From positions 1,488,001 through 1,552,000 of the forward strand of contig NZ_CP037993.1 of assembly GCF_004367745.1 (NCBI RefSeq): 64,000 nt of DNA, given 5' to 3'. Every line of letters starts with the position of its first letter. Position 1 is the first letter of the stretch. The notes under the pieces were generated by a model, which had not been told where the DNA came from, did not search any database, and saw only the letters and a program-made list of their open reading frames with translations. A program made the translations under genes and the position numbers. Shown one piece after another: positions 22,033 to 40,061 of this stretch. Source of the stretch: Herbaspirillum huttiense (GTDB lineage: Bacteria; Pseudomonadota; Gammaproteobacteria; Burkholderiales; Burkholderiaceae_D).

Positions 22033-23553
22033 ATGTCCGATTCCCTCGTCGAAAAAACTGCCGTCGAACTGCGCCAGCTGATCGGCAGCAAGCAAGTCTC
22101 TCCGGTCGAGTTGCTGGACGCCTGCATCGCCCGCATCGAAGACCTCAATCCCCACATCAACGCCGTGACCGCCACCTGCTTCGAGCGTGCCCGCAAGGAG
22201 GCGCGTGCGGCCGAGCAGGCGGTCATGGTCGGGGCTGAACTGGGGCTGCTGCACGGCCTGCCCATCGGCATCAAGGATCTCGAAGAAACCGAAGGCCTGC
22301 TGACCACCTACGGCTCGCCTATCTATCGCGGCAACGTCCCCGCACACGACAACGCGCTGGTGGCGCGCCTGCGCGCGGCCGGTGCCATCGTGGCCGGCAA
22401 GACCAACGTGCCCGAGATGGGGGCCGGGGCCAACAGCCGCAATACGGTGTGGGGGGCCACCGGCAATCCCTTCAATCCGCTGCTCAATGCGGGCGGCTCC
22501 TCCGGAGGCTCGGCGGCGGCGCTGGCGGTGGACCTGCTGCCGCTGTGCTCGGGCTCGGATACCGGTGGCTCGCTGCGCATTCCGGCGGCCAAGTGCGGCG
22601 TCGTGGGATTCCGTCCCTCGCCGGGACTGGTACCGAGCGAGCGCAAGCTGCTGGGCTGGACGCCGATCTCGGTGGTCGGTCCGATGGGCCGCAATGTGGC
22701 CGATACCGTGCTGCAATTGCGCGCCACCATTGGCCTGCATGCCAGCGATCCCTTGAGCCACGCGGTCGATGAAGCGGCGTTCGCGGCCTTGCCGCCGGTG
22801 GACTTGTCGCGCCTGCGCATCGGCTATACCGAAGACTTCGGCGTGTGCGCAGTGGACGAGGGCATTCGCGCAGTGTTCCGCCAGAAGATGGCTGCCATCA
22901 GCCGTTTCGTGCAGGTTTGCGAGCCCGTGGAGATGGAGATGGGCGAGGCCCATCGCGCCTTCGACGTGATCCGTGCCGAAGCCTTCGTGGCAGGGTTCGA
23001 GGCCGCCTATCGCCGCGATCCCGCTTCGCTCGGCCCCAACACCCGCGCCAACTACGAGATGGGTGCGGCCATGAGCTTGTCCGACTGCGCCTGGGCGCAG
23101 GGCGAGCAGACGCGCCTGTTCCGTCGCTTCCAGCAGCTGTATGCGCGCTATGACCTGATCCTCTCGCCGACCACGCCGGTGTCGCCTTTCCCGTGGAGCG
23201 AGCTGTACCTGAAGGAGGTCAACGGCGCGCCATTGGAAAATTATTATCGCTGGCTGGCCCTGACCTATGTGGTCACACTGGTTACCAATCCCTCGATCTC
23301 GCTGCCCTGCGGCCGTGATCATCGCGGCATGCCCTTCGGCTTGCAGGTCACCGGTGCCTTCCGCGACGATGCCCGTTTGCTGGCCTGGGCCGGCGCGCTG
23401 GAGGCGGCGTTCGCGGGCGATGAGACATTGCAGCGGCCACGGCCTGACCTGGCGAAGCTGAAGTCCGTCAACGCAGAGCTGACGTCCCTGGTTACCCATC
23501 CGCCCATCTTCGATGGTGCGGCGACGGCAGCGTCGGCGCAGGCTGCGGTATAA
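22033..23553 (+). CDS. Amidase of the amidase-signature family
   Basis: 506 residues from the ATG at 22033, with an AAGGAAAT ribosome binding site. The Ser-cisSer-Lys triad is visible: Lys in GLPIGIKDLEE (near residue 82), the Gly/Ser-rich NAGGSSGGSAAALAV (near 157) and the nucleophile region GSDTGGSLRIPAA (near 178). It hydrolyses an amide bond in the cytoplasm; substrates in this family range from simple amides to N-acyl compounds and peptides. Between a transporter and a D-amino-acid dehydrogenase, it may release a D-amino acid from an amide or N-acyl precursor, which is inference. Confidence 0.88.
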   Translation: MSDSLVEKTAVELRQLIGSKQVSPVELLDACIARIEDLNPHINAVTATCFERARKEARAAEQAVMVGAELGLLHGLPIGIKDLEETEGLLTTYGSPIYRGNVPAHDNALVARLRAAGAIVAGKTNVPEMGAGANSRNTVWGATGNPFNPLLNAGGSSGGSAAALAVDLLPLCSGSDTGGSLRIPAAKCGVVGFRPSPGLVPSERKLLGWTPISVVGPMGRNVADTVLQLRATIGLHASDPLSHAVDEAAFAALPPVDLSRLRIGYTEDFGVCAVDEGIRAVFRQKMAAISRFVQVCEPVEMEMGEAHRAFDVIRAEAFVAGFEAAYRRDPASLGPNTRANYEMGAAMSLSDCAWAQGEQTRLFRRFQQLYARYDLILSPTTPVSPFPWSELYLKEVNGAPLENYYRWLALTYVVTLVTNPSISLPCGRDHRGMPFGLQVTGAFRDDARLLAWAGALEAAFAGDETLQRPRPDLAKLKSVNAELTSLVTHPPIFDGAATAASAQAAV

Positions 23554-23586
23554 ACCATTTATATCATTTCATTCTTGAACGATTCC

Positions 23587-23937
23587 ATGAACACGATCCA
23601 ACGCTTCAATACCAATGCCCGCATGAGCCAGCTGGTGCTGGCCAACAACTTTGCCTTCGTCGCCGGCCAGGTGGCGGACCATCCGGGTGCGCCCATCCCG
23701 CAGCAGGCCAGCGAAGTGCTGGCCAAGGTCGATGCCCAGTTGCAGGCCCAGGGGATCGCGCGCGAGCGCATCGTCAGCGCCAATGTCTGGCTCTCCAGCC
23801 CGGAGCATTTCGCTGCCTTCAATGCGGTGTGGGATGCCTGGGTCCCTGCAGGCCATGCGCCCACGCGCGCCTGCGTGCAGGCACTGCTGATGGCCCCGGG
23901 GCTGGACGTGGAAGTGGCCGTCATCGCCGCCCTCTGA
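23587..23937 (+). CDS. RidA/YjgF-family protein (imine/enamine deaminase)
   Basis: 116 residues from the ATG at 23587; a TTG at 23575 is an alternative start. RidA proteins speed hydrolysis of reactive enamine and imine intermediates to keto acids. Visible features are FAFVAGQVADHP near the N-terminus, then RIVSANVWLSSPEHFAAFN and WVPAGHAPTRACVQALL. The arginine in PTRACV matches the ligand-binding Arg of the family. The flavoenzyme encoded 20 bp downstream produces imino acids, so the pairing makes chemical sense. Confidence 0.82.
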   Translation: MNTIQRFNTNARMSQLVLANNFAFVAGQVADHPGAPIPQQASEVLAKVDAQLQAQGIARERIVSANVWLSSPEHFAAFNAVWDAWVPAGHAPTRACVQALLMAPGLDVEVAVIAAL

Positions 23938-23957
23938 AAAGATCACGGAGTTTGCCC

Positions 23958-25103
23958 ATGAGCCAGCAAGGCCGCGTCGACTATCTCATCATCGGGGCCG
24001 GCATCGCCGGTGCCTCCATCGCTTACTGGCTGGCGCGTCACGGCAGCGTGCTGCTGCTGGAGCGCGAATCGCAGCCGGGCTATCACAGCACCGGCCGCTC
24101 GGCCGCGCTCTACATGGAGAGCTACGGTCCGCCGCAAGTGCGGGCGCTGACCTGCGCCAGCCGCGCCTTCTTCGATCATCCGCCCGAGGGCTTCGCCGAC
24201 CATGCCCTGCTGACGCCGCGCGGTGCCTTGTTCTATGCGACCGCTGCCTTGCACGCGGAACTCGATGCCCATGAAGCGCTGGTGCGTTCGGTGTCCGACA
24301 AGGTGCAGCGCCTCGATGCGGCGCAGACCCGCGCCATGGTGCCAGTGCTGCGTGAGCAAGACCTGATCGGTTCGGTCTACGAGGAAGATGCCAGCGACAT
24401 TGACGTGCATGCCTTGCACCAGGGCTTCCTGCGCGGCGCGCGGGCAGCGGGCGCACGCGTGCTGTGCAATGCCGAGGTGCAGTCGCTGCAGCATGGCCAT
24501 GCGCAGGGAGAGAGCACGTGGCATGTGCAGACGAGTCAGGGCGAGTTGCGCGCGGGCGTCATCGTCAACGCCGCCGGTGCCTGGGCCGACGAGATCGGGC
24601 AACTGGCCGGAGCCGCGCCCATCGGACTGGTGCCGAAGCGGCGTTCAGCCTTCACCTTCACGGCACCGGCCGATAGCGCCCACTGGCCAATGTTCATGCC
24701 GGTCGATGAATCTTTCTACATCAAGCCGGATGCCGGCCTGCTGCTGGGTTCGCCGGCCAATGCCGATCCGGTCGGAGCGCACGACGTGCAGGCCGAGGAA
24801 CTGGATATCGCCATCGCCATCGACCATATCCAGAACGGCACGACGCTGGAGATCCGGCGTCCGGCGCACGTCTGGGCCGGCCTGCGTTCCTTCGTGAGCG
24901 ACGGCAGTTTCGTCGGCGGCTACGACGCCAAGGTGCCGGATTTCTTCTGGGCTGCCGGGCAGGGCGGGTATGGCATTCAGTCGTCACCGGCGGCGGGCGA
25001 GGCCTATGCGGCCCTGATCCGGGGCGAGCCGGTGCCGGCGCATATCGCGCGCTTCGGGGTCGATGCCGCGGCCTTGAGTCCGGCGCGGCTCAGGCCAGCT
25101 TGA
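23958..25103 (+). CDS. dauA: FAD-dependent D-amino-acid dehydrogenase, D-arginine dehydrogenase (DauA)-like
   Basis: 381 residues from the ATG at 23958, with a CACGGAG ribosome binding site. The FAD-binding dinucleotide fold is at the N-terminus (DYLIIGAGIAGASIAYWLA, then LLERESQPGYHSTGRSAA). From memory it closely matches Pseudomonas aeruginosa DauA, sharing GYHSTGRSAA, PQVRALT-ASRAFFD, GLVPKRRSAF, DESFYIKPDAGLLLGSPANA and a C-terminal WAGLRSF. DauA oxidises D-arginine and other D-amino acids to imino acids, which become 2-keto acids. No dauB-like L-arginine dehydrogenase gene lies nearby, so the physiological substrate may differ from D-arginine. Confidence 0.8.
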   Translation: MSQQGRVDYLIIGAGIAGASIAYWLARHGSVLLLERESQPGYHSTGRSAALYMESYGPPQVRALTCASRAFFDHPPEGFADHALLTPRGALFYATAALHAELDAHEALVRSVSDKVQRLDAAQTRAMVPVLREQDLIGSVYEEDASDIDVHALHQGFLRGARAAGARVLCNAEVQSLQHGHAQGESTWHVQTSQGELRAGVIVNAAGAWADEIGQLAGAAPIGLVPKRRSAFTFTAPADSAHWPMFMPVDESFYIKPDAGLLLGSPANADPVGAHDVQAEELDIAIAIDHIQNGTTLEIRRPAHVWAGLRSFVSDGSFVGGYDAKVPDFFWAAGQGGYGIQSSPAAGEAYAALIRGEPVPAHIARFGVDAAALSPARLRPA

Positions 25104-25815
25104 GGCTGGCCGTGCTGCGCATCTGCGCTGCCTCTTCTTGTGCCTGCATCGCCTCCACCAGCTTGTGCAGCACCTGGCCGGTGAGGCGAGCGAGCAGGCC
25201 CTCGTGATCCTGCTCATACTTTTTCAACAGCCGCAGGCAATCCTGATCCACCCACATCCAGTCGCCGCTGCGGCTCTGCGGCGGCAATTGCGCGCGTGCT
25301 GCCAGCGGTAGCGGCGCTATCTCCTCCTGCCATGCCCACAGGTAGTCGTGACGGTGCGAGCGCGTGAAGGGCAGCCCGCAGACCTCGGCCACCAGCGGGT
25401 CGTGGCGCATGGTGAAATCGATGATCTCGCGCCGCAGGCTGCCGTCCGGCATCGGATGCAAGGCTTCGATCCAGCAATGGTAATCCTTCAGTTCAGACAG
25501 CTTGCGCGCACTGCGCCGTGCCTTGCGGCCCGGATGCATGGCAACGTAGAGACCGCTGCCGCAGTCAATGACCTCGCCGCCCGACAGCGCCGTGTAAGGA
25601 CGATTGAGCAGGAGGCGCAGCACGCGCGCACCTACCAGGGCGTAATCGGCGCAGCGCCCCAGCGTGCCCATGGTCAGCCGTGCTTCGGCGGCCGCTTCTT
25701 CCATGACCGCATTGAGGGCGGCATCGATCATGCCGCGCAGCGCCGGGGCGACCGGCAGCGTGAGGGCGGCACCGTTGGCGGCGGGGGCAGCGGCGAAGGA
25801 CATACCGGGACTCAT
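25090..25815 (-). CDS. Unknown protein with a transglutaminase-like Cys-His-Asp pattern
   Basis: 241 residues. I cannot name the family with confidence. Residues about 50-140 show the order of a transglutaminase/papain-like core: C55 in RCADYALVGARVL, H113 in DYHCWIEAL and D133 in IIDFTMRHD. The order Cys, then H-x-W-(I/V)-E, then D-x-T, is characteristic of that fold, so a thiol hydrolase or acyltransferase is plausible. There is no signal peptide or membrane helix. It is the last gene of the FlgE/FliD operon, 10 bp after flgE, and its 3' end overlaps the convergent dauA gene by 14 bp. GAGG lies 9 bp before the ATG. Confidence 0.6.
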   Translation of the reverse strand: MSPGMSFAAAPAANGAALTLPVAPALRGMIDAALNAVMEEAAAEARLTMGTLGRCADYALVGARVLRLLLNRPYTALSGGEVIDCGSGLYVAMHPGRKARRSARKLSELKDYHCWIEALHPMPDGSLRREIIDFTMRHDPLVAEVCGLPFTRSHRHDYLWAWQEEIAPLPLAARAQLPPQSRSGDWMWVDQDCLRLLKKYEQDHEGLLARLTGQVLHKLVEAMQAQEEAAQMRSTASLKLA

Positions 25816-25825
25816 GCGTGCATCC

Positions 25826-27088
25826 TCATCGCAGGCTGATGAGCGTCTGCAATACCGTGTCCTGCACCTTGATGGATTGCGAATTGGCCTGGTAGACGCG
25901 CTGCGCCACGATCATGTTGACCAGCTCGGCGGTCAGGTCGACGTTGGATTGTTCGACGGCACGGCCCTGCAGGCTGCCGAAGGTGGCCGTGGTGGGGGTG
26001 CCGACCAGCGGACTGCCGGCCGCCGCCGTGGCCTGGTAGAGATTGTTGCCCAGCGGCTGCAGTCCGTTCGGGTTGGCGAAGTTGACCAGCACGATCTGGC
26101 CCAGCACCTTGGTTTGCTGGTTGCTGTAGCTGCCCACCAGGCTGCCATCCTTGCCGATACTGAAGCTGGAGAGCGTGCCCGGCGGCGAGCCATCCTGCGA
26201 TTGCGCCAGGTTGGCAAAGGCCGAACCGGTCTGGGTGGAGCCGGCGTAGTTCAGTGCGATGGGCGTGGGGAAGCTGGCCCCGCCCTTGACCATGCTGCTC
26301 AGGTCGACCGTCATGCCGGTGCTGGCGGTGAGGGCACCGGTGGCATCGAAGCGCAGCGTGCCCAGCAGTTGCGGGCCGGTGGCCGGTGGCGCGGCGTTGA
26401 TCAGCTTGCCGTCCAGCGTGCCATACACCGACCAGGTGGTAGCGGGCGGGCTGCCGGTCGGCGGGCTCTTCACGTAGTAGGTCTGCAGCGAATACGGATT
26501 GCCCAGGCTGTCATACACGGTCGCGCCGGTGGAATTGTTGTAGCTGTTGGGATTGGCCGGATCGAAGGGACTGATGGTCGGCACGCTCTTGCGCGAGTCG
26601 AGGTTGATCTTGGTGGTGATGCGCGAGGTGGCAGTGGCCGGGAGGGTGGCCGTATCGATCTTCAGCGGTACCGGATCGCCGCCTGCGGCACCGGCCGGAT
26701 AGCCGGTGAGATAGGCACCGTTCATGCTGGGGTTGATGAGGTAGCCATCCTTGTTCAGCTGGAACTGGCCATTGCGCCCGTAACGCGGGGACTGGTCATT
26801 CAGGTTGGCCGCCATGCGGAAAAAGCCGTCGCCGTTGATCGCCACATCCAGCGCATTGTTGGTGGTGGCGATGTTGCCCTGGGTGAAGGCCTGGCTGACA
26901 TTGGCCAGTGTCACTCCGATGCCGACCGGCGAATTGCCGGAGCGGTTCATGGAGTTGGCATAGGCGTCGGCAAATTGCACCTGTCCCTGCTTGAAGCCGA
27001 CGGTGCTGGCGTTGGCCACGTTGTTGCCGACGACTTCCAGATGTTTGCTCGCGCCCTGCAGGCCGCTGAGTCCCTGTTGAAAGCTCAT
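25826..27088 (-). CDS. flgE: Flagellar hook protein FlgE
   Basis: 420 residues. The N-terminal flagellar rod/hook motif is clear (FQQGLSGLQGASKHLEVVGNNVANASTVGFK), followed by QFADAYANSM and hook-type D1/D2 segments such as TNNALDVAINGDGFFRM and YGRNGQFQLNKDGYLI. The C-terminus has the matching coiled-coil part (VDLTAELVNMIVAQRVYQAN, then QTLISLR). FlgE polymerises into the hook. Here it is not followed or preceded by other flg rod genes but is the third gene of a small operon after fliD, 35 bp downstream of it, so it may be a second hook gene or a relocated one. Confidence 0.85.
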   Translation of the reverse strand: MSFQQGLSGLQGASKHLEVVGNNVANASTVGFKQGQVQFADAYANSMNRSGNSPVGIGVTLANVSQAFTQGNIATTNNALDVAINGDGFFRMAANLNDQSPRYGRNGQFQLNKDGYLINPSMNGAYLTGYPAGAAGGDPVPLKIDTATLPATATSRITTKINLDSRKSVPTISPFDPANPNSYNNSTGATVYDSLGNPYSLQTYYVKSPPTGSPPATTWSVYGTLDGKLINAAPPATGPQLLGTLRFDATGALTASTGMTVDLSSMVKGGASFPTPIALNYAGSTQTGSAFANLAQSQDGSPPGTLSSFSIGKDGSLVGSYSNQQTKVLGQIVLVNFANPNGLQPLGNNLYQATAAAGSPLVGTPTTATFGSLQGRAVEQSNVDLTAELVNMIVAQRVYQANSQSIKVQDTVLQTLISLR

Positions 27089-27123
27089 GGTGGTGGTTCC
27101 GTTGAGTGAGGTGGAAAAGGGCG

Positions 27124-29178
27124 TCAGGTCTTGCGCAGGCGCGCCAGTTGCTGGGTCAGGTAGGACTGCGAGGCCTGCATCCGGGCCAGCGTCAGGTTGA
27201 GGCGATTGAACTGGTTGGTGTAGCTGTCGCGCAGGTTGGCCAGGCGTTCGCGGGCGGCGGCCTGCTGGTCGGAGACCGTCTTGAGGCTGCTCTGCAGGCC
27301 GCGCGTCTTGCCGGCCAGCAGCCCGGTCTCGCCCAGCACCTTGTCCAGCAGGGCCTGGCTGCGCATGACCACGCCGCCCTTGTCGGTGAACAGGCGCGCC
27401 AGCGCATCGAAGCTGGTGCTGCCGGCCTTGCTCAGGCGGGCGTCGTCCAGGGCCAGCGTGCCGTCCTTCTTGAAACTCACGCCAATGGCCGCCAGCGAGC
27501 CATGCTCATTGCCGCTCACGGCCCCCAGCACCGCGTTGCGCAACTGCCCCATCAGGGCCTGCACCATCGTTTCGCTGGCCAGTGGTCCCTGTTCGCCGGC
27601 CTGGCCGCGCACCTTGGAGGGGACTTGGCGGGTCAGTGTGGCGACCGACTTGGTCAAGGCATTGAAGGCATTGACGAAACTGTTGACCGCCTCCTTGGCA
27701 CCGCTGTTGTCGTTGCTGACGGTGAGCGTGAAGCGGTCGCTGCTACGGGTGGTCTTGTTCAGGTTGAGGGTCACGCCGGAGATGGCATCGCGGATCTGGT
27801 TGCCGGGGGCGGTGATGGCCACGCCATCAATGCTGAGGCGGGCGTCCTGCGGGCGCTGCAGCTGGCCCATGGCGCTGGCCGTGAGCACCGCATAGTCGCC
27901 GCTGCCGCGCAGGCGAATGGCATCGCTGCCGCCGTTGCTCAGCACCAGCCGTTCCACGGCCTGGTCACCCTGGCCTTCGCGCCGCACCGTCGCGGTGACG
28001 CCGGCCTTGGCTTCATTGATGGCGCTTGCCACGTCGGCCAGGCCCGGTGCGGCACCCGCCGTGCTGGAGGCCGGTGACAGGCTGAAATTGCGGGTGCCAA
28101 CCGTGAGGCTCACGGTCCCTGTACCGAAACGTTTTTCCAGCGCGACCGATGCGGTGCTGACATTGCCGGAAGGATCGGAAGCGAACACCGCAAAGTCCCC
28201 CGTGCCCGAGACCCGGATGGCGTTTTGCGCGCCGCTCTCCTTGGCGGTGAGCACCAGGTGTTCCTGCTTGCCGTCGCTGACGATGGAGGCATTCACGCCA
28301 GCCTCTGCCGCATTGATGGCATCACGCACGCCGGCGAGGGTGTGGTTGGCGGGTTTGATGAGCGCGGTCGATCCCTGCCCGGTCTTGATCGCCAGCACGC
28401 CCACGTCGAAGGTCGTGCCGGGGTTGATGCCGGCCGAGCTGAGCTTGTGCGCCTGCGCCAGTTGCTCCACGCTCAGCGCATAGCTGCCGGCCGCCGCACG
28501 GGTGGCGTCGCGCGCGGCCTGGGTTTGCGTCATGGCACCGGGTCGCTGCTGCTGTGGATCGAAGCTGATCGCGGAGAGACTGTTGTTGGATCGTACGCTC
28601 AGCGTGTTGGCGGTGCCGCCGGTATTGGATTCCAGGACCAGGTGTTCACCGGCTTCGTCGCGCGTGACGCTGGCGGTCACGCCTGCGTTGGCGGCGTTGA
28701 TGGTATCGCGCAGCCCGGTGACGGTGGCGTCGGCCTTGAGCGTGATGAATGTCGGCGGCCGGGTGCCGACCTTGATGGCCAGTGAATCGCCAGCCCGGAA
28801 CAGGTGGCCGCTGGCAAAGCCGCCGGAGCGGATCTTCTGGGCCAGCGCGCGGGTGGAGTCATCGGCGTTGATGTCGGCGCTGATGGCGTCGGCCCCGGTC
28901 TTGACCTCGCCGCCACTGCCCGTGGCGTTGCCGCTGTTGCTGACCGCCGCCTTCTGGGCGCTGAACCTGGCGGCCGTCAGCCCGGCCAGCGCGCTCTGGT
29001 AGGTGCCGAGCGCCTTGTCGAGGCTGCCATAGGCGGCCAGCAGGGCATTGAAGCCATCGGCCTTGCTGGCCAGCGGCGTCAGGCGCGATTTGCTTTCCAC
29101 GGCGACCAGCTGGTTGACCAGGTTGGCCACGTCCAGTGGTCCCGCCGAGGTGGAGATGGAGCCGGTAGATGTTGCCAT
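27124..29178 (-). CDS. fliD: Flagellar filament cap/hook-associated protein FliD (HAP2), long form with repeats
   Basis: 684 residues from the ATG at 29178, with GGAGG 4 bp upstream; the frame is open further but with no better start. FliD features are an N-terminal SAGPLDVANLVNQLVAVESK and a C-terminal domain ending in SYTNQFNRLNLTLARMQASQSYLTQQLA. Many FliD proteins have about 450-500 residues. The extra length comes from three copies of a flagellin-hook-IN-like unit, at about 152-200 (VTGLRDTINAANAGVTASV), 280-330 (LAGVRDAINAAEAGVNASI) and 380-430 (LADVASAINEAKAGVTATV). FliD caps the filament and can bind host surfaces. It lacks its usual fliC, fliS and fliT neighbours. Confidence 0.88.
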   Translation of the reverse strand: MATSTGSISTSAGPLDVANLVNQLVAVESKSRLTPLASKADGFNALLAAYGSLDKALGTYQSALAGLTAARFSAQKAAVSNSGNATGSGGEVKTGADAISADINADDSTRALAQKIRSGGFASGHLFRAGDSLAIKVGTRPPTFITLKADATVTGLRDTINAANAGVTASVTRDEAGEHLVLESNTGGTANTLSVRSNNSLSAISFDPQQQRPGAMTQTQAARDATRAAAGSYALSVEQLAQAHKLSSAGINPGTTFDVGVLAIKTGQGSTALIKPANHTLAGVRDAINAAEAGVNASIVSDGKQEHLVLTAKESGAQNAIRVSGTGDFAVFASDPSGNVSTASVALEKRFGTGTVSLTVGTRNFSLSPASSTAGAAPGLADVASAINEAKAGVTATVRREGQGDQAVERLVLSNGGSDAIRLRGSGDYAVLTASAMGQLQRPQDARLSIDGVAITAPGNQIRDAISGVTLNLNKTTRSSDRFTLTVSNDNSGAKEAVNSFVNAFNALTKSVATLTRQVPSKVRGQAGEQGPLASETMVQALMGQLRNAVLGAVSGNEHGSLAAIGVSFKKDGTLALDDARLSKAGSTSFDALARLFTDKGGVVMRSQALLDKVLGETGLLAGKTRGLQSSLKTVSDQQAAARERLANLRDSYTNQFNRLNLTLARMQASQSYLTQQLARLRKT

Positions 29179-29203
29179 GTTGCCTCCGTAGCGCAGTCGG
29201 TGT

Positions 29204-30322
29204 TCAGGGGCCGGTGCGCACCAGCGCGCCGCGCACCTGCTGCGTGACAGCCTGCGTGAGCGCCAGGCGCTGGCGGGCTTCGGCGCGCTTGCGCGAGGGC
29301 AGGGATTGCAGATCCGGTGCCGTTTCTTCACATGGCAATTCGTAGTCGCCATCGCTGCGCCTTGCTGCGCCCAGTTCCTGCCAGAAAGCGTCATAGTCAG
29401 CGTGGACCCGCCCGCGTTTGCCGCGCCGGCTGGCCACGCGATTGCCATTGCTCACCAGCAGCACGCGGCTGCAGCCATGGCCGGCGCCGATGGCGCGCAC
29501 CATGCGGATCATCAGCGCCTTGGGCCGCAGGCCGAACAGGTCGCGTGTGGCGCGCCGGATCTGCTCGCGGCTGTCAGCACCGCCGCCGCCCTGCAGGCAG
29601 CCGATGCGCACGATCCAGCCGTTTCCTTGGCGGCACAGGGTGAAGGCGGTCGAGAACAGGTGGTCCTGGCCGCGATACAGGTGCAGCGCCAGTTCGCCCT
29701 CATGGTCCAGGCTGTTGATGGCGGCCAGGCGCACCTCGTAGTCCTGGCCCGACTTGCCTTGGAACTGGCCGATCGGGATTTGCTGCTGCGACGCTTGCAG
29801 CACCAGCGGGGCCAGGCCACGGCGGATGACGAAGTCGTAGTGGCTGGTCAGGATCTCCAGCCGTTGCGGCCGGCGCAGGCGCAGCGACTGGTAGGGCCGG
29901 TAGATCTTGTGCAGCAGGCGCGGCGTGGCTACCGCCAGGGCCGCATGGGTGGCGGTCAGGTTCCAGAAATCCAGCCATTGCCGCGTCTGGCGCGGGGCCA
30001 GCAGGCCGCGTGTGCGCAGCTTGATCTGCCGAGCCAGGCGGGAGAGCGGCGCGCGCGGCTGGTCCGGAGCACTGAGCAGGCTGAGCGGCGCACTCGGGCG
30101 GGCCGCACGCAGACGCGCGGGAACGGCCGCGTTCCAGGCCGGGGAGGGGCGGGCGGCACCGGTACTGGCACGTACCAGCTGTACGCAGCGGGCCATGCCC
30201 GGTACCAGCAGGTAACACGCCACGGCCAGCAGCAACAGGCTCAGGCAGGCCAGCAACGGTTCCTGGATGTCCAGCAGCAGCCCGTAAGGGCCGGGGGTAT
30301 GCGGAACGGTAATGAACGACAT
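29204..30322 (-). CDS. VirK/YbjX-family (DUF535) protein with an N-terminal membrane helix
   Basis: 372 residues from the ATG at 30322, preceded by AAGGAG. A hydrophobic helix spans about residues 23-42 (LLACLSLLLLAVACYLLVPG), then a basic, Pro/Ala-rich linker to about 100. The DUF535 domain follows, with KIYRPYQSLRLRRPQRLEIL, SHYDFVIRRGL, EGELALHLYRG, and RVLLVSNGNRVASR. Enteric members (VirK, YbjX) are linked to virulence and resistance to antimicrobial peptides, but their biochemistry is not established. It is the first gene of the operon with fliD, flgE and the transglutaminase-like gene, 25 bp upstream of fliD. Confidence 0.72.
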   Translation of the reverse strand: MSFITVPHTPGPYGLLLDIQEPLLACLSLLLLAVACYLLVPGMARCVQLVRASTGAARPSPAWNAAVPARLRAARPSAPLSLLSAPDQPRAPLSRLARQIKLRTRGLLAPRQTRQWLDFWNLTATHAALAVATPRLLHKIYRPYQSLRLRRPQRLEILTSHYDFVIRRGLAPLVLQASQQQIPIGQFQGKSGQDYEVRLAAINSLDHEGELALHLYRGQDHLFSTAFTLCRQGNGWIVRIGCLQGGGGADSREQIRRATRDLFGLRPKALMIRMVRAIGAGHGCSRVLLVSNGNRVASRRGKRGRVHADYDAFWQELGAARRSDGDYELPCEETAPDLQSLPSRKRAEARQRLALTQAVTQQVRGALVRTGP

Positions 30323-30334
30323 GGGGACGACTCC

Positions 30335-30382
30335 TTGCACGATGAAGACAGAGAAAGGGAGCTCTCTGTCTTGCTTGTGCAA
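30335..30382 (-). promoter_or_regulatory. Long 5'-UTR hairpin abutting the ribosome binding site of the DUF535-fliD-flgE operon
   Basis: On the minus strand TTGCAC (30377-30382), AAGACAGAGA (30363-30372), an 8-nt loop, TCTCTGTCTT (30345-30354) and GTGCAA (30335-30340) form a hairpin with a perfect 10-bp inner stem and a 6-bp outer stem, separated by a 4 x 4 internal loop. The last AA of the outer stem is also the start of AAGGAG, the ribosome binding site of the first gene. No T-tract follows, so a terminator is unlikely. A role in translation control or mRNA stability is inferred. Confidence 0.6.
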
Positions 30383-30456
30383 CGAGCCGCGCAAAATGAC
30401 GGTCTGTTACAAATTTTTTTTCAGGGGGCAGTGGTCCGCTGCGCTGGGGCAGCGGA

Positions 30457-32943
30457 TCAGAACTCGACGATATGGGTCAGGGTGAGCGTGCGGGACGGCT
30501 CCACGCCGATGGTGGTAGTGGCGAAGTCGCTGTAGAGGCGGCGGTCGAACAGGTTGCGGATGCCCAGCGTGGTGCGGCTGCCGCTGCCGCGATGGTAGAG
30601 GCTGGCGTCGACCCGGGTCTGGCCGGCGATGCGTACCTGCGAATTGCTGTCGCTGAAGGCCATGTAGCTGCTGCGTGCAGTGAGGCCGGCCCCGAAGCCC
30701 CAGCCGCGCCAGGCCTCGGACTGCAGGTCATAGGTGCTCCACAAGCTGGCGCGATGGTGGGCGAACTGTGCGATCCGGCGGTCTTCTTCGGTGCTCGCGG
30801 CCGGACGGAACAGGCTGTAGCCGTAACTGGCGATGATGTTCCAGCCGCGTGCCAGGCGGCCCGACAGGTTCAGCTCCACGCCCTGGCTGACGGCCGAGGG
30901 CAGCAGCACGTAGCTGTTGAAGGGCGAGCTGGTATCGGGAAACACGAACTGCAGCACATTGGTATGGCTGGCACGGTAGAGGGCGGCGGTGAAGATGGCA
31001 CGGCGCTCCAGCAGCTCCAGCTTGAGGCCGACTTCCGCCGATTTCCCGGTGGTGGCGGGCGCACTGTTGATGCCGGGTTTGCCGCCATTGAGGCTGGAGT
31101 CCAGCAGCAGCTGGCCCGGGGTGAAACTGCGGAAGGCATTGGCGTAAACGGTGGCGGTGTCGCTGAGCCGGTACGCGATCCCGAGGTTGTAGACCGGTCC
31201 GTGCCGGGGTGGCGAGGTGTCGTGCTCGACGCCGTTCATGTCGACGTCCGACGAAAAATTGTTGCGTTCCTGTTCGTAGCCGACGTTGGCCAGCAGCGTC
31301 CAGCGACGCCAGCGCACCTGGTCCTGCAGGTAGAGGTTGGAGGTGTAGATCGCGTCGCGGCCACTGACGATGCCGGGGGTATCGGTGATGGCCGGGAAGT
31401 CGCTGGCGACGGGCGGCCAGGTGACGCCGATGACGTTCGAATTGCTGGCGTCGCTGTAGCGGAGCAGGCGTGTGCGCGTGAAGCTGCCACCGGCCATCAC
31501 CGTATGCTGCCACTCGCCGCTGACGATCTTGCGGGAGAGGCTGTTATCCAGCCCGATGCTGTCCGCATGCAGCAGCGACTGGTCGCTCACGCATACGCCG
31601 GTACCTTCGTCCAGGTCCACCGGCGAGCAACTGGTGTAGCCGGCTGAGTGGTAGCGCAGCCGCGTCAGGCGGGCCTTGCTGTTGAGACGCCAGCCGTCAC
31701 CCAGGTCTTGCTCCCAGCGGTAGAACAGCTCGCTCTTGGTGGCCTGGCTGTGATCGTCCGGCAGGCCCCAAGGCGTGTTGCGCAGGTCGGGGCCGGGGCC
31801 GGTGTCGGTGAGCATGGCGCTCTGGTAGCCGCCGAAGGGGGACCGTGTGACGTGGTGGCTCAGGCCTGCTACCACGGCGGTATCACGGTCCTTGTAGCCG
31901 AGCGAGGCGGCGAGGTAGAACTCGCGCGCGCCGTCGTAGCCATCCAGGGTGCGCTTCTCGTGCGTGGCCGAGAGGATCGTGCGATAGGTCCAGGCGCGGT
32001 CCTCCGTGAGGCTGCCGCCGAGGTCGAGGGCGCTGCGCCGATGGCCGCGATTGTCGACCTCCAGCGTCCATTCGCGCAGGGTATCGGCCACCGGTTGCTT
32101 GGTCACGATGTTGACCGATCCGCCCGGTTCCATCGGTCCGCCGACCACGATGGAGTCGGCACCGCCCAGGACTTCGACGCGTTCGATGGCGGCCATGGGC
32201 ACATCCAGCGAGGTGATGCTGCGTGAGCCGGCGACGCGGCCATTGGTCACGTTGGACAGCGAGACCAGGTCGCCCCAGCCATCGCGCATGACCGGGGCGA
32301 TGAAGCTGCGCACGTAGAGCGTACCGGCCTGGTCGACGCCGTCGCCGCGGCCATGGACCACGGCGCTGATGTTCTGCAGGCTGTCCACCACCGAGCGCGA
32401 TTGCTGGCTTTCGAGAACGGAACTGGTGATCTCCTGCAGCGACACCGGCAGGGCCGACAGTTTTTCTTCCTGCCGTGTGGCCAGCCGGCTGCCGCTGGCC
32501 AGGAAGCCGCTGTCGAGATAACCGTGGCTGCTGTTGCGCTCCTCCCCGGTGCCGGTCTGCATGACCGGTGGCAGCGGCGGATTGTAGCGGGGCAGCACTT
32601 CCGGAATGCGGCGTACCCCGTATGAGCCATCGGCCTGCGCGACCAGTTCCAGCGGGCTGTCGGCCAGTGCGCGCTGCAGTGCCTGGGGTAGCGTGTAGCG
32701 GCCTTGCACGCCGTTGCTGCCGAGCCCGGCCGTCACCGCCGGATCGAACAGCACGATGCCACCGGCGGTACGCGCGATGGCGGCCAGCGTCGCTTCCATG
32801 CTGGCGGCGGGCAACTGGAAGTCGAACTGCGCCAGCGGGACGGGGGCGGAAACGATTTGCGCGGCAGCGGGCGCGGTCAGCAGCGCCAGCGGGCTGGCCG
32901 CGAGGCAGTGCGCCAGCAGGAGGGTGAGGCGGGTGGGGCGCAT
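30457..32943 (-). CDS. TonB-dependent siderophore receptor with N-terminal signalling (STN) domain
   Basis: 828 residues. After a signal peptide ending near AAAQ (residues 1-28), an STN domain spans about 38-112 (FDFQLPAASMEATLAAIART, NGVQGRYTLPQALQRAL). The plug domain follows (SVLESQQSRSVVDSLQNISA, RVEVLGGADSIVVGGPMEPGG), then a 22-strand barrel ending in TLTHIVEF with the C-terminal Phe. It imports a ferric siderophore using TonB. The STN domain would touch the FecR protein encoded just upstream (13-bp gap) to signal binding. The ligand is unknown. It is the third gene of the sigma-FecR-receptor operon. Confidence 0.9.
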   Translation of the reverse strand: MRPTRLTLLLAHCLAASPLALLTAPAAAQIVSAPVPLAQFDFQLPAASMEATLAAIARTAGGIVLFDPAVTAGLGSNGVQGRYTLPQALQRALADSPLELVAQADGSYGVRRIPEVLPRYNPPLPPVMQTGTGEERNSSHGYLDSGFLASGSRLATRQEEKLSALPVSLQEITSSVLESQQSRSVVDSLQNISAVVHGRGDGVDQAGTLYVRSFIAPVMRDGWGDLVSLSNVTNGRVAGSRSITSLDVPMAAIERVEVLGGADSIVVGGPMEPGGSVNIVTKQPVADTLREWTLEVDNRGHRRSALDLGGSLTEDRAWTYRTILSATHEKRTLDGYDGAREFYLAASLGYKDRDTAVVAGLSHHVTRSPFGGYQSAMLTDTGPGPDLRNTPWGLPDDHSQATKSELFYRWEQDLGDGWRLNSKARLTRLRYHSAGYTSCSPVDLDEGTGVCVSDQSLLHADSIGLDNSLSRKIVSGEWQHTVMAGGSFTRTRLLRYSDASNSNVIGVTWPPVASDFPAITDTPGIVSGRDAIYTSNLYLQDQVRWRRWTLLANVGYEQERNNFSSDVDMNGVEHDTSPPRHGPVYNLGIAYRLSDTATVYANAFRSFTPGQLLLDSSLNGGKPGINSAPATTGKSAEVGLKLELLERRAIFTAALYRASHTNVLQFVFPDTSSPFNSYVLLPSAVSQGVELNLSGRLARGWNIIASYGYSLFRPAASTEEDRRIAQFAHHRASLWSTYDLQSEAWRGWGFGAGLTARSSYMAFSDSNSQVRIAGQTRVDASLYHRGSGSRTTLGIRNLFDRRLYSDFATTTIGVEPSRTLTLTHIVEF

Positions 32944-32956
32944 GCAGCAGGCGGGT

Positions 32957-33910
32957 TCAGGCGCGTGCGCTGATGGTGACCCAGTAGGGGCTCACCCGTG
33001 TCACAGAGATGGGCAAGGCGCTGGCCAGTGCCGACAGGGCGCGCTCGCTGTCATCCAGCGGGAAGGCACCGCTGATGCGCAGCCCGGCCACGGCCGGATC
33101 GAGCCTGAGGATGCCCGTGCGGTAAGGACGCAGCGCTGCCACCACTTCGGCCAGCGTGTTGTTGGCGGCGGTGTAGTAACCGTCGACCCACGAGGTTTCC
33201 CCGCCAGCATTGGCGCGTGCGGTACCGATGCGGTCGCTGTCGAACCAGAGATGCTGGCCGCCGGCCAATTGGCCACGGGTATTGTTGCGGGTCACCACCC
33301 CGATCTGACCGGCCTGCACCGCCACCAGTTCGGTGCGGGCGGGCTGCAGGGCCATCGCCAGCGTTCCGCCCAGCAGCTCGGCGCTGCCATGCACGGTCTG
33401 GATGATGAAGGGCAGGTCCGCACGCGCCGCCACCTGCAGCTGGATTTCGCCCGCCAGCAAGCGGATTTGCCGCGTGCCCGATGCGATCTGCTGGTCGATG
33501 GCGCTGCGCGCGTTGAGGATCAGGGTGCTGCCGTCGGCCAGCAGGGTGCGGCGACGCTCGCCGGTGCCGGTGTGCAGGTCGGCGCGCAGTCCTGCCAGCG
33601 GGGTGACGCGGTCGGCCAGCAGGGCGGCACCCACGGTGAGGCCGGCCAGAATGGCGATCTGCTTGAGGGCCTTGCGACGCCGGCTCTTCTGCTGCAGCGT
33701 GTTGCGCAGCACCTGGGGGGCGGCACCGACCTGGCGCGGAACGTCGAACTGCTGCACCGACTGCGCCAGATTGGCATAGGCCACGGCATGGCGCGGATCA
33801 GCCGTTTTCCAGTGTTCGAAGGCGGCTTGTTCGCCTTTGCTCAGTTCGCCTTGTTCGATCTGCAGCATCCACTCGATGGCCTGCTCCACGATCTTGTCTT
33901 CGTTCTTCAT
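32957..33910 (-). CDS. fecR: FecR-family anti-sigma/sigma regulator
   Basis: 317 residues from the ATG at 33910; the frame extends 15 codons upstream, but MKNEDKIVEQAIEWMLQIE is the normal family start. The DUF4880-like N-terminus includes AIEWMLQIEQGELSKGEQAAFEHWKTADPRH. One membrane helix lies near residues 85-105 (KQIAILAGLTVGAALLADRV). The periplasmic FecR domain follows (LHTGTGERRRTLLADGSTLILNARSAI), and a C-terminal STN-binding part. It passes the signal from the receptor to the sigma factor across the inner membrane. Confidence 0.9.
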   Translation of the reverse strand: MKNEDKIVEQAIEWMLQIEQGELSKGEQAAFEHWKTADPRHAVAYANLAQSVQQFDVPRQVGAAPQVLRNTLQQKSRRRKALKQIAILAGLTVGAALLADRVTPLAGLRADLHTGTGERRRTLLADGSTLILNARSAIDQQIASGTRQIRLLAGEIQLQVAARADLPFIIQTVHGSAELLGGTLAMALQPARTELVAVQAGQIGVVTRNNTRGQLAGGQHLWFDSDRIGTARANAGGETSWVDGYYTAANNTLAEVVAALRPYRTGILRLDPAVAGLRISGAFPLDDSERALSALASALPISVTRVSPYWVTISARA

Positions 33911-33918
33911 GCGCGCGC

Positions 33919-34452
33919 TTACCCCAGCGGCGCGAAGCCGGCGGCCTTGTAGCATTGCAGCAGACCCTTGGCGACGTAGCGGCGGGCCACGCTGGGCGTG
34001 ATGCGCAACTGTTCACCGATGGCCTGGTAGGTCAGGCCATCGAGCTTGTAAAGCAGGAAGGCCGCGCATTCCTTGGCGGTCAGCCCGGCCAGCGCCTGGT
34101 CCATGGCGCGCAGGGCCTGCAGCAGTTGCAGCTGGTCTTCGGGCGAGATGGCCTGGGCCTCGCCGTTGGTGTGCGCCAGCGCTTGCAGGCAGGCTTCCTC
34201 CAGATCGCGGCGTCGCCACAGCTCGTAGACGATGCGGCGCGAGATCGTGGTCAGCAGCGCGCGCGGTTCGCGCACTTCCTGCGGCGGCGAGGTGAGCAAC
34301 TGGGTGAAGGTTTCGGCGGCCACGTCCTCGGCGGCAAAGGCATCCCCCACGCTGCGCCGCAGGCGCGTGCGCAACCAACCATGGTGTTCGATGAACATGG
34401 CTTCGATCTGGTTCATGGCGCCGAGCGGATCGGACATCAGATGTGAACTCAT
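33919..34452 (-). CDS. fecI: ECF sigma factor, FecI type
   Basis: 177 residues. Region 2 spans about residues 10-75 (MFIEHHGWLRTRLRRSVGDAFAAEDVAAETF, ALLTTISRRIVYELWRR), and region 4 about 110-170 (LAGLTAKECAAFLLYKLDGLTYQAIGEQL, then PSVARRYVAKGL). This is the FecI-like subgroup that transcribes the receptor operon when a ferric siderophore is bound. It lies 8 bp upstream of fecR. Starts at 34437 or 34413 are possible alternatives, since no strong ribosome binding site marks the first ATG. Confidence 0.88.
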   Translation of the reverse strand: MSSHLMSDPLGAMNQIEAMFIEHHGWLRTRLRRSVGDAFAAEDVAAETFTQLLTSPPQEVREPRALLTTISRRIVYELWRRRDLEEACLQALAHTNGEAQAISPEDQLQLLQALRAMDQALAGLTAKECAAFLLYKLDGLTYQAIGEQLRITPSVARRYVAKGLLQCYKAAGFAPLG

Positions 34453-34823
34453 GCGGGGTCAGAAATGCGAGTAATTTTCGAGGAAGAGGCCGTGGTGGCC
34501 ATGCTGGTCTCATCACCAGTCCGCTCTTGTCTAAGGACGGGATGCGCTGCAAATTATAAGAGAAATTCACAGTTGTGAAAAAAACTGCCTGCGACCATGG
34601 ATGCGCCGTGCATCTGAGCCCGCTTTTAATCAGCATGGACAGGCATTTCCGGTCGATTGACTTAGTCCGTTGTGTGACCAAAGTGTAAAGTTTCGATGGA
34701 GATTCCGTGACGGGATCGCTCCCGCAGTCAGTGTTTTGTCAGCTGCGGAGACATGTTGGTGATCTCATTCGCACCGGATGTCATCCATTTTTATTGTGAG
34801 TTCTTGGTTGAGTTCTGGGCGCT
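34453..34823. other. Intergenic region between the sigma-factor operon and the diguanylate cyclase
   Basis: 371 bp upstream of fecI and downstream of the diguanylate cyclase gene. It holds one plausible minus-strand promoter (34553-34581). No convincing Fur box, terminator or small gene was recognised. Confidence 0.5.
34553..34581 (-). promoter_or_regulatory. Predicted promoter of the fecI-fecR-receptor operon
   Basis: On the minus strand TTTTCA (34576-34581), a 17-bp spacer and a consensus TATAAT (34553-34558) lie about 100 bp before the sigma-factor start. The -35 is weak. A small inverted repeat, TTCACA-ACTG-TGAA, overlaps the spacer. Confidence 0.4.
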
Positions 34824-36416
34824 TCACTGCGAATTTCCTGCGGCTGCATCCGGTTTGATCGAAGGCGTTACCGGACGCGGCAGCTGGCAGTCTTCCACCC
34901 GGTCGCGGCCGCGTTCCTTGGCGCGATAGAGTGCGCGGTCGGCCCCCGCGAACAGATCTTCGATGCGCATCTCGGGCCGTGGCACGCAGCTCATCACGCC
35001 GGCGCTGATGGTGACCACGCCACCGGCATTGCCCTGATGCGGGATCGCCAGTGCGCGCACACCATCAAGCACCTTCTGGGCGATGCGATGAGCATTGTCG
35101 AGATCGGTGTCGGGCAGCAGCAGCGCAAATTCCTCGCCGCCGTAGCGCGCTGCCAGGTCGCCGTGCCGGCGCTGCATCCCGCGCAGGGTGCGGGCCACGT
35201 CCTGCAGGCAGTAGTCACCTTGAATATGGCCGTACAGGTCGTTGTATTTCTTGAAGTAATCGACATCGAACATCACCAGCGAGAGGGCGCTCTTGCTGCG
35301 GCTGGCATTGCGCATGGCCAGTTGCAGTTGTTCATCCAGGTAGCGCCGGTTGGGAATGCCGGTCATGCCATCCAGCATGGCCTGGGCCCGCAGGTTTTCG
35401 GTGAGCAGCTTGAGGGACAGGTTCTTCTTTTCGATCTCTTCTTCGGCGCGATCGCGCATGCGTACCACGCGCAGCAGGTAGGCCGTCAGCAGGCCGACCA
35501 GCAGCGCCGCCGAGACGATCACCAGCAATTGCGCACGCTGCGCTTCGCGCCAGTCGGCCAGCATTTCGTCATGGGCCAGAGCGGCCGTGACGAACAGCGG
35601 ATAGTCCGGCACCCGGGTGAAATAGTTCAGGCGCAGCACGCCATCCTGCGCCGACTGGATCACCGCCCAGCCCGACTGGCGCTGTTGCGCATGATCGCGA
35701 TAGAGCGGCAGGTCGGCCATGCTCTTGCCGAGAAACTCGCTGCCGTAGGGTCGGCGCAGCAGCATGCTGCCGTCGGTGCTGGCCAGCACCAGTGAGCCCT
35801 GCTTGCCGATGTTGAGTTCGTTGAACAGGCGCATGAAGTGGTCCAGGCTCACGCCCACGCGGATGACGCCGGCCGGCTTGCCCTGGCGCAGGCGCTGGCG
35901 CGTCACCGGAATGATCCAGCGGCCGGTGACGCTGCTGATGACCGGCGTGCCGATCTGCAGTCCGCCGCTCTTGTCCTCCGCACGGCGCTCTCCGCGCGCC
36001 ATGGCCATTGCCGGTTCCATGCCGGACAGGCCGGCCGGCTCCGCATGGGCGGGCCAGCGCTGCCGGGTGCGGCCCTGCTCGTCGATGACCAGCAGGCTGT
36101 CCAGTTCGGGAAAGAGCTGGCTCTGGCGCGTGAGCAGATCTTGCACCATGCCTTGCAGTTCAGCCGGGGAGAGGCTGCGGCTGCCTTCCAGTCCGGCGAT
36201 TTCCTGTATCAGCAGATCGGCCGCACGAAAGCTCAGGTTGACCTGGGTAGCCAGGCCGGTGGCGAGATTGAGGGTGGCGGTCTCGCCGCTCTTGATCGCT
36301 GCTTCGCGGCTGCTGAGGCTGCCGTTGAGCAAGGCATAACCAAACAGCGCGCTGCCCAGGATGGCCAGGACCAGCGAGGTGATCCTGACCTTGTTGTTGA
36401 GACGTTTGAGAGGCAT
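34824..36416 (-). CDS. Membrane-bound diguanylate cyclase with double-CACHE-like sensor
   Basis: 530 residues. A membrane helix lies at about 12-32, then a periplasmic sensor region (about 35-290) with dCACHE-like segments such as LDSLLVIDEQGRTRQRWPA and GVIRVGVSLDHFMRLF. A second helix is at about 300-320 (LLVIVSAALLVGLLTAYLLRVV), a short coiled coil to about 350, and a GGDEF domain (355-515) starting DGMTGIPNRRYLDEQL. The active-site loop is RYGGEEFALLLP, with an inhibitory RxxD site (RHGD) in the usual place, so it should make c-di-GMP and be feedback-controlled. It appears to be a single-gene unit. Confidence 0.92.
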   Translation of the reverse strand: MPLKRLNNKVRITSLVLAILGSALFGYALLNGSLSSREAAIKSGETATLNLATGLATQVNLSFRAADLLIQEIAGLEGSRSLSPAELQGMVQDLLTRQSQLFPELDSLLVIDEQGRTRQRWPAHAEPAGLSGMEPAMAMARGERRAEDKSGGLQIGTPVISSVTGRWIIPVTRQRLRQGKPAGVIRVGVSLDHFMRLFNELNIGKQGSLVLASTDGSMLLRRPYGSEFLGKSMADLPLYRDHAQQRQSGWAVIQSAQDGVLRLNYFTRVPDYPLFVTAALAHDEMLADWREAQRAQLLVIVSAALLVGLLTAYLLRVVRMRDRAEEEIEKKNLSLKLLTENLRAQAMLDGMTGIPNRRYLDEQLQLAMRNASRSKSALSLVMFDVDYFKKYNDLYGHIQGDYCLQDVARTLRGMQRRHGDLAARYGGEEFALLLPDTDLDNAHRIAQKVLDGVRALAIPHQGNAGGVVTISAGVMSCVPRPEMRIEDLFAGADRALYRAKERGRDRVEDCQLPRPVTPSIKPDAAAGNSQ

Positions 36417-36845
36417 GGCTTACTCCGGGGGATGTTGGGTGAACGTGTCAATCTGAAATCAAATTAATCAAATTCACCATTTGTATTTTAATGCAAATGC
36501 ATTTTGATTTCCTTTATTGCAATAGAAAGCCCCTTTTTAAAGGGCAGAATGTTGATGTGGATTAAGCCGCTTGTTGCTTTTCGTCAGGCATCGATCGGAT
36601 CGCGAATTCCTCTCATTTCCTTATGGAATGGCTATTTCCACATGGTAATGCTCACCATTTGTCACGCCTGGATGATTGATCCGGCAACTGTGGCGTGAAA
36701 ATGCGACGGAATTTCGGCGTTAAAAACATTTTCATCGAATACGTTAAATAAATCGTTTATATTTCTTGCAGTCGGCTGACAAATGTTGGCCCGGCACAGG
36801 GGTTTCTTGGGGTTGGCTCAGGTGTAAAAACGAAGAGGGGATGAA
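36417..36845. other. AT-rich intergenic region upstream of a chemoreceptor gene
   Basis: 429 bp between divergent genes, markedly richer in AT than the rest of the window. It has several short inverted repeats: CATTTG-N10-CAAATG around 36478-36499, CCCTTT-TT-AAAGGG around 36531-36544, and ATAAA-TCG-TTTAT at 36748-36760. These could be regulator or nucleoid-protein sites. No clear sigma-28 promoter for the chemoreceptor and no gene was recognised. Confidence 0.5.
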
Positions 36846-38573: not shown

Positions 38574-38611
38574 AGGGCCAGCTCAATCCCGCAAGGGGAG
38601 GGTTTGGCGAG

Positions 38612-38641
38612 CAGCGCGTCCATTGGGCGCGCTGTTTTTTT
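38612..38641 (+). terminator. Rho-independent terminator of the first chemoreceptor gene
   Basis: A perfect 7-bp stem (CAGCGCG ... CGCGCTG, 38612-38634) with a 9-nt loop is followed by a run of seven T. It starts 39 bp after the stop codon. Confidence 0.88.
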
Positions 38642-38648
38642 GTATTGA

Positions 38649-38746
38649 TTCAAGCCTGCATTGAGGCCTGAATCCAAGCGTGAATGAAGGGCAGAACTGT
38701 GGCGTGAATTCGCACGTGGATTGAAGCGTGAATTCACGTGCGAATT
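38649..38746. repeat. Cluster of degenerate GTGAATT/CACGTG repeats with nested palindromes
   Basis: Variants of a core (A)AGCGTGAATT/GCGTGAATTC/CGTGGATTGAAG recur several times. Two 12-bp arms, AATTCGCACGTG (38707-38718) and CACGTGCGAATT (38735-38746), are perfect inverted copies 16 bp apart. A perfect 12-bp palindrome, CGTGAATTCACG (38727-38738), overlaps the second arm. The block lies between the chemoreceptor terminator and the 3' end of the MerR-like gene and contains no gene. Confidence 0.7.
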
Positions 38747-38811
38747 TTGCACCAGATCCTGTACAGAATTCTGTCCCCAATTCGGACCGGCCTCATCCCG
38801 GTCAACTGTGC

Positions 38812-39810: not shown

Positions 39811-40061
39811 TGTCGTATTTCCAATGAAAAATATTTTTGTAATGTACGGATATTTTTTAAATATATCTGTTCAGAGTCGTTGCAAAGCAAATTTGTTGCG
39901 CGCTGAAAAAGATTTTTACCGTTTGTTTTGGTGATTATCTTGAGTGTGTCACGCTTTTTCCTGAATGTGAAACATCGTGATCAACAACAAGAATCGGCCC
40001 GCCCCCGTGGACACGTGTCGATCCATTCGAGAAACCTTGCATCCCCCCGGAAAGAACCATC

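Follow-up and report, generated by a model that had tools for sequence, protein, structure and literature searches.

Spare hook and cap genes behind a FecIRA-type trio in Herbaspirillum huttiense: a possible kit for altering the resident flagellum

Why would a hook gene and a filament-cap gene stand together, away from the other flagellar genes and enclosed by two genes that are no known flagellar parts? The question is raised by a minus-strand operon at 25090-30322 of a 64,000-nucleotide (nt) stretch of Herbaspirillum huttiense (contig NZ_CP037993.1, positions 1,488,001 to 1,552,000; hereafter the window), in which genes for a DUF535 (VirK/YbjX) protein, FliD, FlgE and a protein of transglutaminase/papain-like fold (TGL) follow one another. 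Hook and cap are usually regarded as fixed parts. The earlier note on this DNA offered three options: an accessory hook/cap set, a surface structure with a processing or cross-linking enzyme, or a displaced part of the main flagellar system. In the reading favoured here, to which we give slightly less than an even chance, the operon and three genes upstream form a cassette, a signal-controlled kit by which the resident flagellum receives altered hook and cap subunits, the outer proteins being likely modifiers. No earlier description of the operon was found in the part of the open-access literature consulted.

The operon itself is well defined. On re-reading of the open reading frames (ORFs), the four genes, their coordinates and their spacing of 25, 35 and 10 nt came out exactly as first described, and each gene runs from ATG to TGA without internal stops. 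The DUF535 gene (29204-30322, 372 amino acids (aa)) matches Pfam DUF535 with 257 bits (cut-off 27), and its product shares 97% identity with a protein recorded under H. huttiense. The accessory fliD (27124-29178, 684 aa), for the filament cap, carries FliD_N and FliD_C, both above the curated Pfam cut-offs. The accessory flgE (25826-27088, 420 aa), for the hook, is recognized by NCBIfam NF004238 (492 bits, cut-off 400) and by FlgE_D2, Flg_bbr_C and Flg_bb_rod, all above the Pfam cut-offs. Pfam therefore bears out the three identities first proposed, and NCBIfam that of FlgE as well. The last gene, TGL (25090-25815, 241 aa, Cys55-His113-Asp133), matched no Pfam or NCBIfam family at E up to 0.1. 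FliD had been called long, which is ruled out as an oddity: its size is ordinary for this genome, where the main copy has 689 aa and a solitary copy 673 aa. Rod, flagellin and chaperone genes had been reported missing beside the operon, and none were found among the ORFs at 23000-33000 or in the 20-kb stretch of a second carrier, G026. The same ORFs include no gene for a basal body, motor, exporter or flagellin, and the locus is not a complete secondary flagellar system with these parts adjacent.

The unit does not begin at DUF535, as had been supposed. Directly upstream, at 30457-34452 on the same strand, lies a trio that the earlier note overlooked. It consists of fecI (33919-34452), an extracytoplasmic function (ECF) sigma factor gene with Sigma70_r2 and Sigma70_r4_2 above cut-off; fecR (32957-33955), for an anti-sigma and signal relay protein with FecR and DUF4880 above cut-off; and a fecA-like gene (30457-32943) for a TonB-dependent receptor with plug and barrel domains. 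The STN signalling domain of the receptor is a weak match (E 2e-5, 24.7 bits, cut-off 28.4). Adjacent genes for an ECF sigma factor, FecR and a TonB receptor make up a FecIRA-type arrangement, and all three are present in each of the four cassettes found in the genus (see below); the other three fecI genes are 87-90% identical to that of the window. Between the end of the receptor gene and the start of DUF535 lie 134 nt. Judged by position and joint conservation, control of DUF535-fliD-flgE-TGL by FecI seems marginally more probable than its absence.

The leader of DUF535 is unique. It contains a 24-nt element, AAATTTGTAACAGACCGTCATTTT (30393-30416, minus strand), in which the four cassettes agree at every position. 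Conservation extends beyond it over a longer part of the leader but not to the stretch just past the receptor gene. In the 5.69-Mb genome, AAATTTGTAACAGACCGTCATTTT has a single match at up to 3 mismatches, and a reversed control has none. A regulon shared through this element was rejected, as no second genome site exists. Its 21-nt core likewise has no site within 5 mismatches in L010-L013, four stretches that cover the main and solitary flagellar loci. AAATTTGTAACAGACCGTCATTTT is a probable promoter. Scored against the familiar sigma-28 consensus, the best site in each of the four leaders has 7 of 16 mismatches, compared with 2 of 16 upstream of the main fliC, so a class-3 flagellar promoter was rejected; a sigma-54 reading was dropped as well, because the -24 GG was seen by eye in only two of the four leaders. 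Upstream of fecI, a 14-nt element, ATTTCTCTTATAAT (34553-34566, minus strand), is also identical in all four cassettes. It contains TATAAT and resembles a housekeeping -10 box.

Is this, then, a second hook and cap set or a part of the first? The genome of the window (G000; one contig, 5,691,775 bases) gave three FliD_N matches, two FlgE_D2 matches and one DUF535 match in a whole-genome profile search. Its main flagellar region is found at 2.345-2.385 Mb. Profiles identified flgC, flgD, flgE, flgF, flgG, flgK, flgL, fliC, fliD, fliF, fliG, fliI, fliM, fliN, fliR, fliS and fliT there, the names inside the rod/hook family being assigned by position and length; flgA, flgB, flgH, flgI, flgJ, flgM and flgN were recognized by eye, and the inventory left out flhA, flhB, fliP and fliQ. 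Of what the earlier note had proposed to look for in the same genome, a second flgE is present, and fliC, fliD, fliS and fliT lie within the main region. With a second flgE, two further fliD genes and a broad main region elsewhere, the accessory option holds. The eight same-genus genomes in a family sample of 145 genomes all have at least two fliD genes: FlgE and FliD number two and three in each of the two cassette carriers, and one and two in each of the remaining six.

The FlgE tree points the same way. Among its 18 rows, the four accessory sequences form a clade (99/98) that is sister to the eight main FlgE sequences sampled from the genus (88/95), the joint clade being supported at 100/100; three outgroup rows are long-branched and the drawing is midpoint-rooted. 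FlgE of G054 and G096 and the main FliD of G026 and G129 are absent from the trees. The idea of a piece moved out of the main cluster is not supported, given this separate accessory clade and the single FlgE in each of the six other genus members. Within G000, accessory and main FlgE are 72% identical overall: 77% over residues 1-145, 59% in D2 and 88% over residues 301-420. The accessory FliD shares 55% identity with the main FliD and 60% with the solitary one, its nearest relative outside the cassette. Among the best 120 of 177 matches in a large clustered protein set, eight proteins reach 78-99% identity with the accessory FliD before a drop to 60%; records under the names H. camelliae and H. 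seropedicae belong to this type. The solitary fliD (673 aa, L010:6354-8375, at about 1.204 Mb of G000) has no flagellar cluster in its stretch, and an ORF next to it (L010:5461-6129) has a sub-threshold Abi_2 match.

The cassette genes are under purifying selection. In 27 pairwise comparisons covering five cassette genes, the ratio of nonsynonymous to synonymous divergence (dN/dS) is 0.087-0.423, on which ground pseudogenes were rejected; over six pairs of the accessory flgE it is 0.087-0.157. Between G000 and G026, dN/dS is 0.087 for the accessory flgE and 0.181 for the main flgE. In the same pair, the accessory protein keeps 136 of 145 residues identical over positions 1-145 (main, 131) and 136 of 155 in D2 (main, 118). 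Taken over its full length, the accessory FlgE is, by the part-wise counts and dN/dS, the more constrained of the two proteins in this single pair. Synonymous divergence (dS) between G000 and G026 is 0.50-0.60 for the five cassette genes and 0.493 for a flanking gene. Since the cassette behaves like its flank, the two genomes probably inherited it vertically, and a recent transfer between them is unsupported.

How widespread is the cassette? The genus search (34 genomes) was run with a TGL profile built from 17 rows, so cassettes lacking TGL would escape it. TGL matches were found in five genomes (G000, G026, G145, G146 and G152), and four of them, all but G145, keep the order fecI-fecR-fecA-DUF535-fliD-flgE-TGL, with fliD missing in G146. 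The seven genes are otherwise conserved jointly in the carriers seen. The gene order that was to be sought in relatives is real in these four genomes, bar the one loss, and the outer genes, whose free variation would have spoken against a unit, do not vary freely among them. Family-wide, TGL was matched in 7, DUF535 in 54, FlgE_D2 in 125 and FliD_N in 118 of the 145 genomes, and of the seven TGL-matching genomes only G000 and G026 gave close full-length matches. An order-wide sample, scored on at most seven candidates per genome, contained TGL in 5 of 399 genomes (G000, G026, G284, G416 and G469).

The site of the cassette varies. On the TGL side, its neighbour in the window is a Pfam-recognized FAD-dependent oxidoreductase gene (23979-25103), which was found in 16 of the 34 genus genomes. 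This site holds the cassette in G000 and G026. In G101, G059, G162, G116 and G082 nothing stands between the oxidoreductase gene and the counterpart of the GGDEF gene at 34824-36416, and in G165 another ORF separates the two. G129 carries a 76-bp TGL remnant of 84% identity (L051:9391-9466), and its GGDEF gene aligns in part only. The remnant appears, from the alignment, to mark the point of a cassette deletion that also removed part of the next GGDEF gene. The remaining seven oxidoreductase-bearing genomes show other neighbours in the fetched stretches. The cassette of G152 sits at a different place, 4.05 Mb, and the flanks of that of G146, on a short contig, differ again, so that the cassette occupies at least two chromosomal sites. 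Given the varied sites, the scar and the empty sites, the cassette seems to be an old possession of the genus that has been lost or relocated more than once. An island at a tRNA site was rejected, as the window, L050, L051 and L056 contain no tRNA genes.

Just past the cassette, the window holds the gene of a GGDEF diguanylate cyclase and two genes of methyl-accepting chemotaxis receptors (34824-41795). They belong to the site and not to the cassette, because their counterparts stand at several empty sites. Near the same locus, G165 (L060:1691-8170) and G162 (L061:2169-8627) have an ORF of about 2155 aa; the window genes that match on either side of it are adjacent in the window.

Outside Herbaspirillum, TGL keeps partly similar company. 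Relatives with 39-40% identity occur in Burkholderia, in 3 of 72,556 plasmid records, all of them large replicons. In each of the three (L105, L106 and L107), fliD lies 124-437 bp from TGL in convergent orientation, and, with E limited to 1e-100, a search for this fliD returned exactly the same three records. We take it to be a spare copy, the main flagellar cluster being on chromosome 1. In B. pyrrocinia, a strongly repetitive ORF with FEW/FAQ-like triplets lies between TGL and fliD (L106:8626-9033). In G416 (L084:8380-10127), DUF535 and TGL are paired 23 nt apart and the 20-kb stretch has no flagellar matches, which suggests an older partnership of these two. TGL is tied to fliD in one outside lineage and to DUF535 in another; in Herbaspirillum both are joined.

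What could the outer proteins do? TGL has a transglutaminase/papain-like fold in the predicted structure, with an invariant Cys-His-Asp set, and its profile matched no solved chain by sequence at E up to 1. DUF535 has a single N-terminal hydrophobic helix (hydropathy maximum 2.59 at residue 23), preceded by no Lys/Arg and followed by 11 Lys/Arg against one acidic residue. By the positive-inside rule, these flanking charges place the domain in the cytoplasm. Structure modelling and comparison found a GNAT core fold, and the protein models as a membrane-anchored GNAT-like acyltransferase. The TGL alignment (A1) omits P0002-P0005 and P0007, and the DUF535 alignment (A2) omits P0043. The idea of a processing or cross-linking enzyme, raised in the earlier note, fits the predicted folds of the outer genes. 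A role in phage defence was rejected, as PADLOC gave no match for the four operon proteins. In PHROGs, DUF535 matched a family of unknown function (E 2.8e-36) and TGL only weakly (0.023), which speaks neither for nor against a phage origin.

Taken together, these features can be arranged into the following mechanism. A ligand at the TonB receptor would free FecI via FecR, and FecI would transcribe DUF535-fliD-flgE-TGL. The spare FlgE and FliD, bringing neither an export gate nor a rod, would leave through the main flagellum, a step which seems likely. Before export, they would meet two cytoplasmic enzyme domains, namely the membrane-anchored GNAT-like acyltransferase (DUF535) and TGL. DUF535 would acylate, and TGL would deamidate or cross-link, the hook and cap subunits; such modification of FlgE or FliD by either protein is possible, with the odds leaning against it. 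Adhesion, stiffness or recognition would then shift with the changed hook and tip. A stronger form of this proposal seems unlikely: a mobile, signal-switched retooling cassette, whose surface receptor would activate spare hook and cap genes plus two dedicated enzymes, a membrane-tethered acyltransferase and a transglutaminase-like enzyme, for the chemical modification of these subunits during their passage through the resident exporter, so that hook and tip change in composition with no new flagellum being made.

Several observations weigh against the proposed kit. The 134-nt gap may leave the four genes outside FecI control. In H. seropedicae, one study reports a TAAAT-N16-CGT iron-starvation box ahead of mbtH and assayed a reporter of the mbtH promoter in mutants of pfrI and cirA (PMC6037834). 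The exact box, a feature of some FecIRA members, is found in none of the four cassette leaders; looser xAAAx forms stand 15-16 nt before CGT in all four (GAAAA-N16-CGT in G000 and G026, CAAAT-N16-CGT in G146 and GAAAA-N15-CGT in G152). The cassette of Herbaspirillum chlorophenolicum (G146, L056) has no fliD, while flgE and both outer genes are kept. Over residues 301-420, the main FlgE is better kept between G000 and G026 than the accessory one (117 against 113 of 120). The membrane helix of DUF535 is not general, since the G416 protein shows none (hydropathy maximum 1.08). The three Burkholderia replicons share one orthologous locus and therefore count as one independent event. Finally, in the stretches fetched from G145, G469 and G284 (L057), TGL has neither flagellar genes nor DUF535 for neighbours, so its link to flagella is not universal. 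Published DUF535 members, in the part of the literature consulted, were studied for envelope and virulence effects and not for flagella: YbjX is said to add myristate to lipid A, and the VirK of that study left lipid A unchanged (PMC13109725). Titles and opening lines of abstracts in the literature contained no tie of DUF535 to hook or cap genes.

The last of these points lead to the rival that survives best. FlgE and FliD could be variant subunits only, while DUF535 and TGL act on the envelope, all four being co-regulated for one surface change. The solitary TGL copies, the G416 pair without flagellar genes, the presence of DUF535 in 54 of the 145 family genomes against 7 for TGL, and the published envelope effects all agree with it. 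We nevertheless regard this explanation as rather unlikely, as TGL lies near fliD in a second lineage, Burkholderia, without a DUF535 match in the fetched stretches; this pair links TGL to the cap protein apart from DUF535.

Alternatively, FlgE and FliD could be secreted free through the flagellar exporter, as decoys, adhesins or host-active factors, and never be built in. Their neighbourhood showed no genes for rod, junction or flagellin, and the hook-exposed D2 is better kept in the accessory than in the main protein, as if facing a fixed partner. The polymerising ends of the accessory FlgE are, nonetheless, 77-88% identical to those of the main hook protein, a likeness needless for a free protein, and secretion of this kind seems improbable. 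A functionless piece broken off or duplicated from the main cluster, which might account for the patchy occurrence (4 of 34 genus genomes and one scar), is very improbable in view of the conserved order, the deep FlgE and FliD divergence, the dedicated upstream element and, above all, dN/dS values that stay at or below 0.423 in all 27 comparisons and already contradict it.

If the kit reading is true, bacteria would be able to re-equip an existing flagellum on cue, using a conserved seven-gene unit whose only flagellar parts are hook and cap, joined to two enzyme-like genes and a receptor-sigma trio. DUF535, whose biochemistry is unsettled, and an unnamed transglutaminase-like family would gain concrete candidate substrates.

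The cassette can be compared with several known systems. The DUF535 protein shares its domain with the VirK/YbjX proteins, as the 257-bit match indicates. TGL has a fold related to that of the solved protein 2hly (APC5867), yet the two are only 11% identical, and the listing names no function for 2hly. For a covalent change on a hook protein, spirochetes offer a precedent: lysinoalanine cross-linking of FlgE is reported to matter for motility (PMC10691653). There, FlgE's own Cys/Ser and Lys react, whereas here the candidate enzyme is encoded by a separate gene, and the accessory FlgE contains no Cys. Like secondary (lateral) flagellar systems, the cassette duplicates structural-protein genes alongside a broad main set; unlike them, it supplies hook and cap only. 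With FecA/FecR/FecI cell-surface signalling it shares the ECF sigma factor, FecR and TonB receptor genes in the same order, directly upstream of a candidate target operon, but the apparent target here is a flagellar and enzyme operon and not iron uptake.

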